This document shows positions 1 to 2,665 of a DNA stretch of 20,961 nucleotides, piece after piece. This DNA is from a virus, in the IMG/VR virus record IMGVR_UViG_3300032073_000326, positions 1 to 20,961 of that record. The stretch is one strand, 5' to 3'. The translations under genes were made by a program, and so were the position numbers. Under the pieces are notes generated by a model, which ran no database searches, had not been told where the DNA came from, and saw only the letters and a program-made list of their open reading frames with translations. Within the stretch, counting starts at the first letter, position 1; every line of letters starts with the position of its first letter.

Positions 1-1014
1 TACTGTTAGATTACCAGTAACTGTTAAATTACCAGCTGCAGATATATTAGTAGAAGTAATATCATCCGAAGTTAGTGTACCACTAACAGTAGCATTATTA
101 AATGTAACATTGTCTGATGTACCAACTGCTTGGCCAATACTTATTTGGCCATTAGAAATTGCGACGCCCGTACCCGCGGAGATGTGTGCTCGCACCTCGG
201 CCGCACTCGGGCCTGTATATGTTATAACACCTGTACTATTATTATATGCTAATGAACCATCACCACCAGCATCTGTAACTGATATTGCTTGACGGGCATT
301 TGAATTATTATATTGAGTTATTGAACTAGATATTACACCAGTAGAACTATTATAAGATACACCCGTACCCGCGCTTACGGCCGCTCTCGCACGTGCGTCT
401 GTATAGTATAGATTAGTTGAACCTTCTGTTAAATCGTCTGTATCAAATCCAGTTAAGTTTCTAGTTAAGAAACTAGCTTTATTACCCATATATCCATGTG
501 CTGAACATTGGTAATATAGACACATTGGTGTGTCACCAGTAGGTACAATTTGTGTATATGCACCGGATGAACCAGGTGTTCCGTTAGTTGTTACGCCTGC
601 GGTATAAGCAGTAGTTTTATCTGCTTCGTAATAAAATCTAAGTGGATGACCTGAGTTAGAAGAATCAGATTGATCGAATCGATATGTATTTCCAGGAACT
701 AAATTAAAGTGTGGCGATTCTATGCCATTAATATTATATCCTGAGCTTGATCCACTCCCATGATATGCATGATCAGTTGTTTTTGTTACAACCTTTACAG
801 TTAAAGATAATGTTTGGGATTTTCTTATCTTAAAATAAGAATCCGTTGCAGAACCTATTTGAACTATAGAGTCTAAAGAACCTTCGGTTGTTTTAGCGTA
901 TAATTTTCCATCATACGTGTTTAACGCTAACTCACCTAAGTTTAAATTACTAGTAGTTGGAATAGCTCCGGCTGTAGCCGAACGCCTTAGTCTAATGTCG
1001 CTCTTTCTTGCCAA
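1..1014 (-). CDS. Tail-fibre-like structural protein with cupredoxin-like domain, 3' end outside window
   Basis: An open frame of 338 codons reaches the left edge with no stop. The start is TTG at 1014-1012, chosen because AGGAG lies six bases upstream (1021-1025) and the product begins MARKSDIRLRRS, a typical fibre N-terminus followed by a 'NLNLGELALNTYDGKLYAK' stretch like that of many phage fibres. Residues about 60-180 look like a cupredoxin: His123 in SGHPLRF and Cys170, His173, Met176 in YYQCSAHGYMG. After that come fibre repeats (YYTDARARAAVSAGTGV, then AAEVRAHISAGTGV) and a 'FNNATVSGTLTSDDI' shaft-type segment. It is the last gene in transcription order here and has its own candidate late promoter. 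A virion fibre or decoration role is inferred from context; copper binding is untested. Confidence 0.8.
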   Translation of the reverse strand, partial: MARKSDIRLRRSATAGAIPTTSNLNLGELALNTYDGKLYAKTTEGSLDSIVQIGSATDSYFKIRKSQTLSLTVKVVTKTTDHAYHGSGSSSGYNINGIESPHFNLVPGNTYRFDQSDSSNSGHPLRFYYEADKTTAYTAGVTTNGTPGSSGAYTQIVPTGDTPMCLYYQCSAHGYMGNKASFLTRNLTGFDTDDLTEGSTNLYYTDARARAAVSAGTGVSYNSSTGVISSSITQYNNSNARQAISVTDAGGDGSLAYNNSTGVITYTGPSAAEVRAHISAGTGVAISNGQISIGQAVGTSDNVTFNNATVSGTLTSDDITSTNISAAGNLTVTGNLTV

Positions 1015-1020
1015 TTTTGG

Positions 1021-1025
1021 CTCCT
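1021..1025 (-). promoter_or_regulatory. Ribosome binding site that fixes a TTG start
   Basis: On the minus strand AGGAG is followed by CCAAAA and then TTG. No ATG in this frame lies nearby, and the spacing of six bases is normal. This supports TTG at 1014 as the true start of the left-edge gene. Confidence 0.75.
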
Positions 1026-1033
1026 ATTTTCAA

Positions 1034-1047
1034 TCTCTATATAGAGA
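1034..1047. repeat. Perfect 14-bp palindrome in the leader of the left-edge fibre gene
   Basis: TCTCTATATAGAGA is its own reverse complement. It sits nine bases upstream of the ribosome binding site, so it could fold as a small hairpin in the mRNA leader or be a protein-binding site. It is very AT-rich, and no poly-U tract follows that would make it a terminator. Confidence 0.6.
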
Positions 1048-1070
1048 ATCTTTATAAAAAATGTTTTACA

Positions 1071-1088
1071 AACACATATATATGTGTT
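1071..1088. repeat. Perfect 18-bp palindrome just downstream of a late promoter
   Basis: AACACATATATATGTGTT is fully self-complementary. A transcript from the TATAAATA at 1102-1095 should begin about six bases beyond it, close to 1088. The palindrome would then form a hairpin at the very 5' end of the message. It could instead act as a weak terminator for the gene ending at 1103, but the following sequence is not a clean U-run. Confidence 0.6.
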
Positions 1089-1094
1089 ATAATA

Positions 1095-1102
1095 TATTTA
1101 TA
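1095..1102 (-). promoter_or_regulatory. T4-type late promoter (TATAAATA) for the left-edge fibre gene
   Basis: The minus strand carries the exact octamer TATAAATA directly after the stop codon of the 520-residue protein and about 80 bases before the TTG start at 1014. It lies in the only non-coding gap of useful size in the window. T4-like phages read such sites with the gp55 late sigma factor and the gp45 clamp; neither gene is in view. Confidence 0.7.
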
Positions 1103-2665
1103 TTAGTATGTACCACCATCTATAATGTTAGTAACAATTGGAACACCAGAAGCATTAAATTGTACAAAGTCTCCAGTAGTTCCTAAAGAGCTTGTTAAAT
1201 AAGATAATGCTGTACCACCAGCGTTTGATATAATTACTGCGTCTCCAGTAAATGATCTAACACCAGTACCACCTTCGTCTACGGTTAATCCTGTACCATT
1301 TGATAGATTTAATCTTCCGGTAATAGTTGTAGCACCGGAAATACTTACATCATCATCAATAGTAGTTGTACCACCAGCTGAATCAATTGTTAAGTTACCT
1401 GATGTGGTATCAATCTCGTTATCACCTGTAATACCAACTTGGACATTACCTGCGTAAACCCCACCGAACTGAGCATCATGCCATGGTGATGATGCGTTAT
1501 CTCCGCCGGATAAATCCTCATCTTTTGTGAATGAGAATCTTTCTGTTTGTATATCTAAACCAAAGAAACCAGTTTTAACTGCTGAACCGTTATGATACTT
1601 AAATCTAATACCACGGTCAAGAGCATCTTGAGAAGTGGTATCTTTTGCTAACTCGATCATCGGATCGGTTAGAGTTGTCTCAGATGAATTAACTGTAGTT
1701 GTTGTACCGTTAACTGTTAGGTTTCTTCCAACGATTAAGTCACCACCTGTAGTAACTGTATCTGTTGTACCATTACCTAATACGGTATCACCGTTAACTT
1801 GTAAATCTGTTGTAACTGTTAAATCATTTCCGATTGTAACATCATTTGGTAATCCGATTATAACTTTAACATCAGTACCAACTTTAGTAACTGCTGTTTC
1901 GATCTCGGCTGTTGTACCAAGAATCTGTAGGTCATCTGATAACAATGCAACGTCTTGAGAACCAGCATCACCATCTATTGTAAGAGCAGTAGCAACATTA
2001 ACTGTTCCTGCTGCTGTTAATCGACCTTGTTGATCAACTGTAAATGTTGGAATTGCTGTAGTAGAACCATACGATCCTGCTGTAACTGCGGTATCATCTA
2101 GGTCAATACTAACTGCATTACCTGAAGCAGTTGTTGTAATACCTGTGTCACCTGAAAGTGTTAGTGTTTCCTCAGCTGTTGCTGCTCCACCGAATACGTC
2201 AATTGCAATTGTACCTGAATCACCAGCAACTGAAAGATCTAATGTATCTACAAATTCTTTAACACCTTGTGCTGTAAGCAATTGGGCATCAGTTGGGGTA
2301 TTAGGCATTGCTGTTTCAATGCTTGTTACTATCTGACCTGAACCACCTGTGGATTCAAGTGCTAATGCACCTATATTTAATTCATTTACGTGTTTATTAG
2401 CATCTAAGATAAGTGCACTAGATGCTGTTGCTGTACCATGTGCATGGTCCAACATTTGAGTGAAATACTTACCACCGACTATATCTACGGAAGAAGCAAC
2501 ACCACCGCTTTCCGTTCCTGATCCGATGTATAATCTTTCACCTGCTTGTCCTTGACCTTTATTGGATTGCTCATACGAGTATGCAAGCTCACCTGTCTTC
2601 AGATTACTAGGGGAACTGGTGTTAGATCCCGTAGTTACTATTTTTATCCTTGTTAATTTAGACAT
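1103..2665 (-). CDS. Fibre-like virion protein, 520 residues
   Basis: The composition is that of a phage fibre: rich in Thr, Gly, Ser, Asp and Val, no Cys, with repeated short beta segments. The N-terminus (MSKLTRIKIVTTGSNTSSP, then NLKTGELAYSY and ERLYIGSG) matches the start common to marine fibre genes and resembles the left-edge gene. Residues about 285-310 share a 'LQVNGDTVLGN...DTVTTGGDLIV' segment with the 1319-residue fibre. Residues about 335-385 form a 'DPMIELAKDT...DRGIRFKYHNG...GFFGLD' module known from marine T4-like structural proteins. The protein ends in NIIDGGTY, like the 71-residue protein encoded just upstream. The ATG at 2665 lies one base after that gene's stop, and GGAGG sits 11 bases ahead inside it. 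The exact virion position is unknown. Confidence 0.85.
   Translation of the reverse strand: MSKLTRIKIVTTGSNTSSPSNLKTGELAYSYEQSNKGQGQAGERLYIGSGTESGGVASSVDIVGGKYFTQMLDHAHGTATASSALILDANKHVNELNIGALALESTGGSGQIVTSIETAMPNTPTDAQLLTAQGVKEFVDTLDLSVAGDSGTIAIDVFGGAATAEETLTLSGDTGITTTASGNAVSIDLDDTAVTAGSYGSTTAIPTFTVDQQGRLTAAGTVNVATALTIDGDAGSQDVALLSDDLQILGTTAEIETAVTKVGTDVKVIIGLPNDVTIGNDLTVTTDLQVNGDTVLGNGTTDTVTTGGDLIVGRNLTVNGTTTTVNSSETTLTDPMIELAKDTTSQDALDRGIRFKYHNGSAVKTGFFGLDIQTERFSFTKDEDLSGGDNASSPWHDAQFGGVYAGNVQVGITGDNEIDTTSGNLTIDSAGGTTTIDDDVSISGATTITGRLNLSNGTGLTVDEGGTGVRSFTGDAVIISNAGGTALSYLTSSLGTTGDFVQFNASGVPIVTNIIDGGTY

Follow-up and report, generated by a model that had tools for sequence, protein, structure and literature searches.

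A cupredoxin domain with a conserved His-Cys-His-Met ligand set in fibre and baseplate proteins of marine T4-like phages

The window, by which we mean the whole stretch of 20,961 nucleotides that was analysed (IMG/VR record IMGVR_UViG_3300032073_000326), is part of the baseplate and fibre operon of a T4-like myovirus, as PHROG matches across it indicate. A segment of one of its tail-fibre proteins is, with good support, a cupredoxin domain that shares ancestry with plastocyanin, amicyanin and rusticyanin. It occurs as a portable module of virion proteins, in fibres, gp9-type connectors and wedge proteins, and the four residues that would form a type 1 copper site are kept in nearly all copies. 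We lean towards the view that a cupredoxin has been reused as a rigid surface domain with a site that still binds metal, likely copper that is loaded after lysis.

The fibre protein and the predicted fold of its domain

The fibre gene occupies positions 1..1014 of the window on the minus strand. Its frame opens with TTG at position 1014 and reaches the end of the window after 338 residues without a stop, so that the protein is incomplete. A Shine-Dalgarno sequence, AGGAG (1021..1025, minus strand), lies 6 bases from the start codon and is invariant in 8 aligned sequences; both the TTG start and the AGGAG upstream of it are conserved across seven close relatives. Residues 37-188 match the PHROG family phrog_30742, tail fiber protein (E 8e-53), which bears out the assignment as a fibre protein that the first-pass annotation had made. 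The other PHROG matches in the window are to baseplate wedge subunits, a baseplate hub/tail lysozyme and several tail-fibre proteins.

Three parts can be distinguished in the visible protein, all encoded on the minus strand. Residues 1-55, GELALNTYDGKLY (850..1014), are matched at residues 5-53 by phrog_17885, also a tail fiber protein family (E 1.4e-8), and are probably the attachment part, a role that is inferred. The cupredoxin domain follows at about residues 56-183 (466..849), as judged from an AlphaFold2 model, its Foldseek and VIA matches, and a profile match described below. The region 3' of the domain (1..465) is repetitive, with NLYYTDARARAAVSAGTG / NVTFNNATVSGTLTS-type repeats, and has an equivalent in relatives.

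The leader of the gene (1015-1105, minus strand) contains a late-promoter-like TATAAATA and two palindromes, AACACATATATATGTGTT and TCTCTATATAGAGA. Among relatives (L002, L006, L007, L008, L010, L011, L012) the letters of the palindromes differ and the palindromy is kept. They may be two hairpins or binding sites that are maintained by compensatory change.

The putative ligands are His123 in SGHPLRF (646..648) and Cys170, His173 and Met176 in YYQCSAHGYMG (505..507, 496..498 and 487..489), all on the minus strand. Cys170 would be the thiolate ligand and Met176 the axial one, and the last three residues form a Cys-x2-His-x2-Met loop. These positions had been given exactly in the first-pass annotation, as had the spacing of 47 residues between His123 and Cys170; its remark that no other part of the visible protein contains Cys is likewise correct, both cysteines, Cys165 and Cys170, being in this segment. 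A conserved FDQSDxSN stretch precedes the first His in domains of the window type, and the residue after this His is Pro in the window domain.

The domain of about 115 residues was modelled with AlphaFold2 from an alignment of 19 diverse sequences of the window type (A1). The model has nine strands, with a pLDDT of 93 and a pTM of 0.84, and the strands span residues 68 to 182 of the window protein. In a Foldseek search of the PDB, rusticyanin ranked first (E 1.6e-4, probability 1.00), ahead of small laccases, nitrite reductase, other multicopper oxidases, AcoP and plastocyanin. The TM-scores of these matches are about 0.5, and the structural match is therefore remote. In VIA, the top match was a cupredoxin domain of Hyphomicrobium nitrite reductase (Z 9.1, 97 residues, 2.5 A). 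Thirteen chains reached a Z of 8 or more, values below 8 being commonplace, and all matches shown were cupredoxin-fold proteins, including, among the last of them, factor VIII, the A domains of which have this fold. The earlier suggestion of a cupredoxin fold, for which a structure prediction had been proposed as the check, is thus supported by a confident model with cupredoxins as its leading matches.

In the model, which is numbered by domain (His68, Cys115, His118 and Met121 become His123, Cys170, His173 and Met176 on adding 55), Cys115 closes strand 110-115, and the loop 116-122, with His118 and Met121 in it, leads into strand 123-127. His68 is placed just ahead of strand 70-73, an arrangement as in type 1 copper proteins. 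The model has the Greek-key beta-sandwich of about eight strands that characterizes the cupredoxin superfamily, and also the topology of type 1 copper sites, with Cys, His and Met between the last two strands and the first His before an inner strand. Convergence of the four ligands on one metal is only implied, by their register with known structures.

The same fold is found in BFVD in many cyanophage proteins. BFVD also contains stand-alone "beta-sandwich proteins" with this fold from Pithovirus- and Marseillevirus-like genomes of the LC series (A0A481Z7Q7, A0A481Z6J5, A0A481YY19, A0A481YWX9).

Ancestry and spread of the domain

The sequence of the window domain alone does not reveal its origin. 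Searches in Pfam, NCBIfam and the PDB sequences gave no significant match, and a direct hhalign comparison of A1 with five plastocyanins was not significant either. An intermediate family (A2) was therefore sought, on which the homology now rests. It was found by searching bacteria that carry the window-type domain with the Copper-bind model PF00127, and has the plastocyanin-like signature HPFYIKT...YYYQCxxHxxM. Sixteen of 18 A2 members match PF00127 at E values up to 0.1, and the first member exceeds the curated cut-off (28.3 versus 21.2 bits). Against the PDB, the A2 profile finds plastocyanins, amicyanins, nitrite reductases, pseudoazurin and rusticyanin, with a best E of 4.9e-6; plastocyanin and amicyanin appear at about 5e-6 to 1e-5, and alignment of A2 to plastocyanins gives 4.5e-7.

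A2 is linked in turn to the window-type domain. The hhalign comparison of the two alignments spans 87 columns at E 1.4e-15, with H, C, H and M all in register, and the A2 profile recovers the window domain at E 2e-11. A significant profile relation to known cupredoxins, as expected of a member of the superfamily, therefore exists via A2, and the cupredoxin reading is backed by ancestry as well as by fold, in two significant profile steps to plastocyanin and amicyanin. The Prochlorococcus phage MED4-213 protein (L245) has one domain of the FDQSD form and one of the A2 form. PF00127 itself does not match the window protein or its domain at the cut-off of 21.2 bits, and the domain is therefore assigned to the superfamily only and not to this family; a flavobacterial relative scores 14.4 bits, with nearly the whole model covered.

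The closest cellular relative of the phage domains that we found is an A2-type copy in a 148-residue frame of a Prochlorococcus genome (L314), with HPFYIKT...CSPHASFGM. It matches plastocyanin by phmmer at E 6e-4 with His, Cys, His and Met aligned, and appears from its sequence to be a small secreted plastocyanin-like protein with a signal peptide at its start. Weak matches of the window domain to SETD7 and fimbrial proteins were judged to be due to chance. A few members of A1 and A2 weakly match PF25489, the At5g54830-like domain of plants, with E values of 4e-4 and 1.5e-4 at best; for gp9 of S-SM1, residues 340-406 score 17.9 bits, below the 27-bit cut-off. PF25489 was not found in the record of the window or in 14 control genomes. 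Such sub-threshold matches may hint at a relative among eukaryotes.

The viral contig stretches that matched include 450 confirmed relatives, and at least 596 when the profile is used. The 111 phage records with the domain are from phages of Synechococcus/Prochlorococcus, Pelagibacter and Methylophilales, together with virus records that are marine or unassigned. A search of plasmids gave no match. In the genome collection, 41 loci carry the domain, several of which are probably phage contigs within marine bins, whereas some belong to cells. The complete chromosome of Candidatus Arcticimaribacter forsetii (L107, L417, L418) has it in a 9,219-residue frame that starts with an apparent signal sequence and adjoins a gene resembling PorP/SprF; its C-terminal segment is, by our own reading and not by a model match, presumably a type B gliding/type 9 secretion sorting domain. 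Giant secreted proteins of marine Flavobacteria, of which this is one, contain the domain (also L104-L114).

The position of the domain within phage proteins varies. Fibres carry it N-terminally, in the middle or C-terminally. It lies at about residues 58-183 in the window protein, at 72-173 in a Melnitz protein of 517 residues, at 282-383 in one of 850 from Bellamy, at 400-500 in one of 579 from Mosig and at 604-703 in one of 757 from the podovirus-sized Baldr. In the gp9-type baseplate connectors of cyanomyoviruses, a T4 gp9/10-like N-terminus (PF07880, found in all five connectors tested) is followed by the domain at the end of the protein. The connector form is matched by 326 phage records, many of them from near-identical isolates. 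All four ligands are present in the connectors of ACG-2014d, RB11-B, Syn10, S-RIM8, P-SSM4, S-SM1, P-RSM1, S-RIM2 and S-RIM12, and in a related tail protein of S-N03 (cyanophage records L243, L419-L427). In eight of these phages, the gene after the connector, for a baseplate wedge subunit or an unnamed protein, contributes a further ligand-bearing copy. The first-pass annotation was thus right to place the domain in a phage fibre and underestimated its scope, since it is a widespread virion module rather than the peculiarity of one fibre.

Conservation of the ligands and the nature of the site

The type 1 ligand order His, Cys, His, Met is invariant across the 19 sequences of A1, so that its occurrence in the window protein is no coincidence, and corresponds to that of plastocyanin through the register with A2. 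In 127 non-redundant copies, the four ligand columns are 95-98% conserved and stand within the top eight of 98 columns, for which the median is 58%. Copies that were fetched with peptide patterns devoid of the ligands retain all four in 80 of 80 viral cases and in 41 of 45 cases from the genome collection. The non-redundant set has a lower proportion (118 of 130), and since it includes copies found with a ligand-free query, its absolute loss rates are too high and the unselected sets are the fairer estimate. The length of the ligand loop is variable, and C-x2-H-x3-M and C-x4-H-x2-M forms occur with the ligands kept. Free replacement of the ligands in homologues, named at the outset as an outcome that would refute the proposal, is therefore not what is found.

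This near-universal retention of the ligands by selection leads us to infer that the site would most likely be metal-bound, no metal having been measured, and the ligand set, with its conserved Met, would fit copper best. The cupredoxin would have been inserted as a portable surface domain in a tail-fibre protein of a T4-like marine phage, where it follows the N-terminal attachment segment and precedes the repetitive shaft. As apo type 1 copper sites are generally preformed, such a site could be filled with copper from seawater after lysis. The time of loading is inferred from the synthesis of the fibre in the cytoplasm of the host, which contains very little free copper; the virion proteins have no export signal, and copper loading in the cytoplasm is unlikely. 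The domain would then be a metal-braced rigid unit that strengthens the fibre and baseplate or their contacts with the cell surface. This stabilising or adhesive role is also an inference; it is the one that best suits a domain positioned close to the attachment end in a fibre and terminally in a fibre connector. The Pro after the first His counts against this reading, as many cupredoxins have Asn or Ser directly after this residue; laccases also have His-Pro at the type 1 site.

The scarcity of copper in the cytoplasm raises the alternative that the site takes up zinc or another divalent metal there, as a structural brace with the ancestry of a copper protein, so that the metal in the virion is not copper. 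Zinc is available where fibre proteins fold and copper is not, and a zinc site would explain the conserved ligands equally well. However, Met is kept at the axial position in 97-98% of the 127 non-redundant copies, zinc sites rarely need a Met, and Cys-x2-His-x2-Met is the loop of amicyanin-type copper sites. We consider zinc rather unlikely on these grounds, and copper is favoured.

It is also conceivable that the domain is a metal-free beta-sandwich for spacing or adhesion, comparable to the Ig-like domains that are common in phage virion proteins, with the ligands as a fossil or a constraint of the fold. The copies without ligands bear on this directly. In the clearest case, at the same position of the same protein in cyanophage-like contigs, some copies read HPFRF...YYC..H..MG (L194-L199) and others HRLAF...YNVSNSDYG (L184-L192), so that ligand-less members persist, and the domain is found beside repeats in fibres, and in the giant secreted flavobacterial proteins. 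A prediction for one ligand-free copy had a pLDDT of 71 and no useful PDB match. Since such copies stand in a few virion proteins, metal is evidently not always needed. Yet the ligands do not disappear as four independent fold residues would. All seven non-redundant copies without the Cys also lack the second His (p 9e-11), as do all five without the first His (p 2e-7), the p-values being optimistic because the Fisher tests treat related sequences as independent. On a rough tree, some nodes of which have low support, the losses map to about five places. Judged from sequences alone, such concerted loss is what a shared metal site would predict, and together with the high rank of the ligand columns and their presence in every unselected viral copy it makes a metal-free domain unlikely. 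Joint loss is seen in L184-L192, in L215-L218 and in L225, L227, L232 and L236, and some of these proteins retain a second, intact copy.

A redox or receptor role is a further possibility. The copper centre would then help the phage to adsorb, for instance if it touched something on the host surface that carries copper or electrons, or if contact altered its state. This would agree with the surface position on fibres and baseplate connectors and with the proposal that metals in marine phage fibres act as docking cues for iron (PMC11705849), yet it is improbable in the absence of a known partner, with the domain of the window protein near the attachment end rather than the tip, and with a host range of Pelagibacter and Methylophilales besides cyanobacteria that breaks any tie to photosynthetic plastocyanin. 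For the same reason, since the first two hosts are non-photosynthetic, imitation of the plastocyanin of the host does not serve as a general explanation.

A braced surface domain with copper acquired after lysis thus remains our preferred reading. Its furthest extension is doubtful at present: the particles of T4-like marine cyanophages would be copper metalloparticles, with type 1 copper domains on the gp9-type connector, the wedge and many fibres. Each virion would then hold tens of copper atoms, acquired after lysis, that matter for adsorption or for the stability of the particle, and for the chemistry of copper in the ocean.

Relation to known systems

Cells are known to use blue copper proteins as electron carriers in solution and as domains of enzymes. 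A conserved copper-type site built into baseplate and fibres of the best-studied phages of the ocean would, if confirmed, be a new setting for the fold, and metal, probably copper, may be present on many virus particles of the sea, although metal binding is unproven. Such a site would give a concrete and testable reason to seek copper in virions, and the result names a domain that is unannotated in hundreds of phage records, in fibres, gp9-type connectors and structural proteins. Copper would also join the debate on phages as trace-metal carriers, which so far concerns iron only.

The closest precedent there is iron bound by HxH motifs of phage tail fibres, as in T4 gp37, and the Ferrojan Horse hypothesis (PMC11705849). 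The two systems would have in common a metal on the tail fibre of a marine phage and a proposed link to trace metals. In contrast to the HxH repeats, which lie in the fibre needle and bind iron octahedrally, the window domain is folded and has one Cys/His/Met site per copy, and its visible 338 residues contain no H-x-H motif. The plastocyanin of cyanophages is a separate metabolic gene, petE (PMC10436341). The PHROG families phrog_30742 (tail fiber protein) and phrog_677 (baseplate wedge tail fiber connector) contain the domain, but are named after the host protein and described without a copper-type domain. A literature search, which left preprints and most subscription journals outside its scope, found no description of a cupredoxin domain in a phage virion.

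Copper nitrite reductase and two-domain laccases give the best structural superpositions (VIA Z 8-9). These enzymes also have type 2/3 copper sites, of which the window domain shows none. By profile, the closest relatives are the plastocyanin-like A2 domains, which are common in viral contigs as well (77 loci), and of which the scanned member exceeds the Pfam cut-off that the window form does not reach. With the type 1 (blue) copper cupredoxins plastocyanin, amicyanin, pseudoazurin and rusticyanin, the window domain shares the predicted fold, the order of the four ligands, the ligand loop between the last two strands and the amicyanin-type spacing in it. It differs from them in the Pro after the first His and the FDQSDxSN stretch before it, and in having no measured copper. 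Electron-transfer cupredoxins are exported, soluble and have a redox partner, whereas this one is an internal fibre domain, in a virion protein with no signal sequence at its N-terminus and without a known redox partner. We rate it as a divergent subfamily of the cupredoxins in a new setting.
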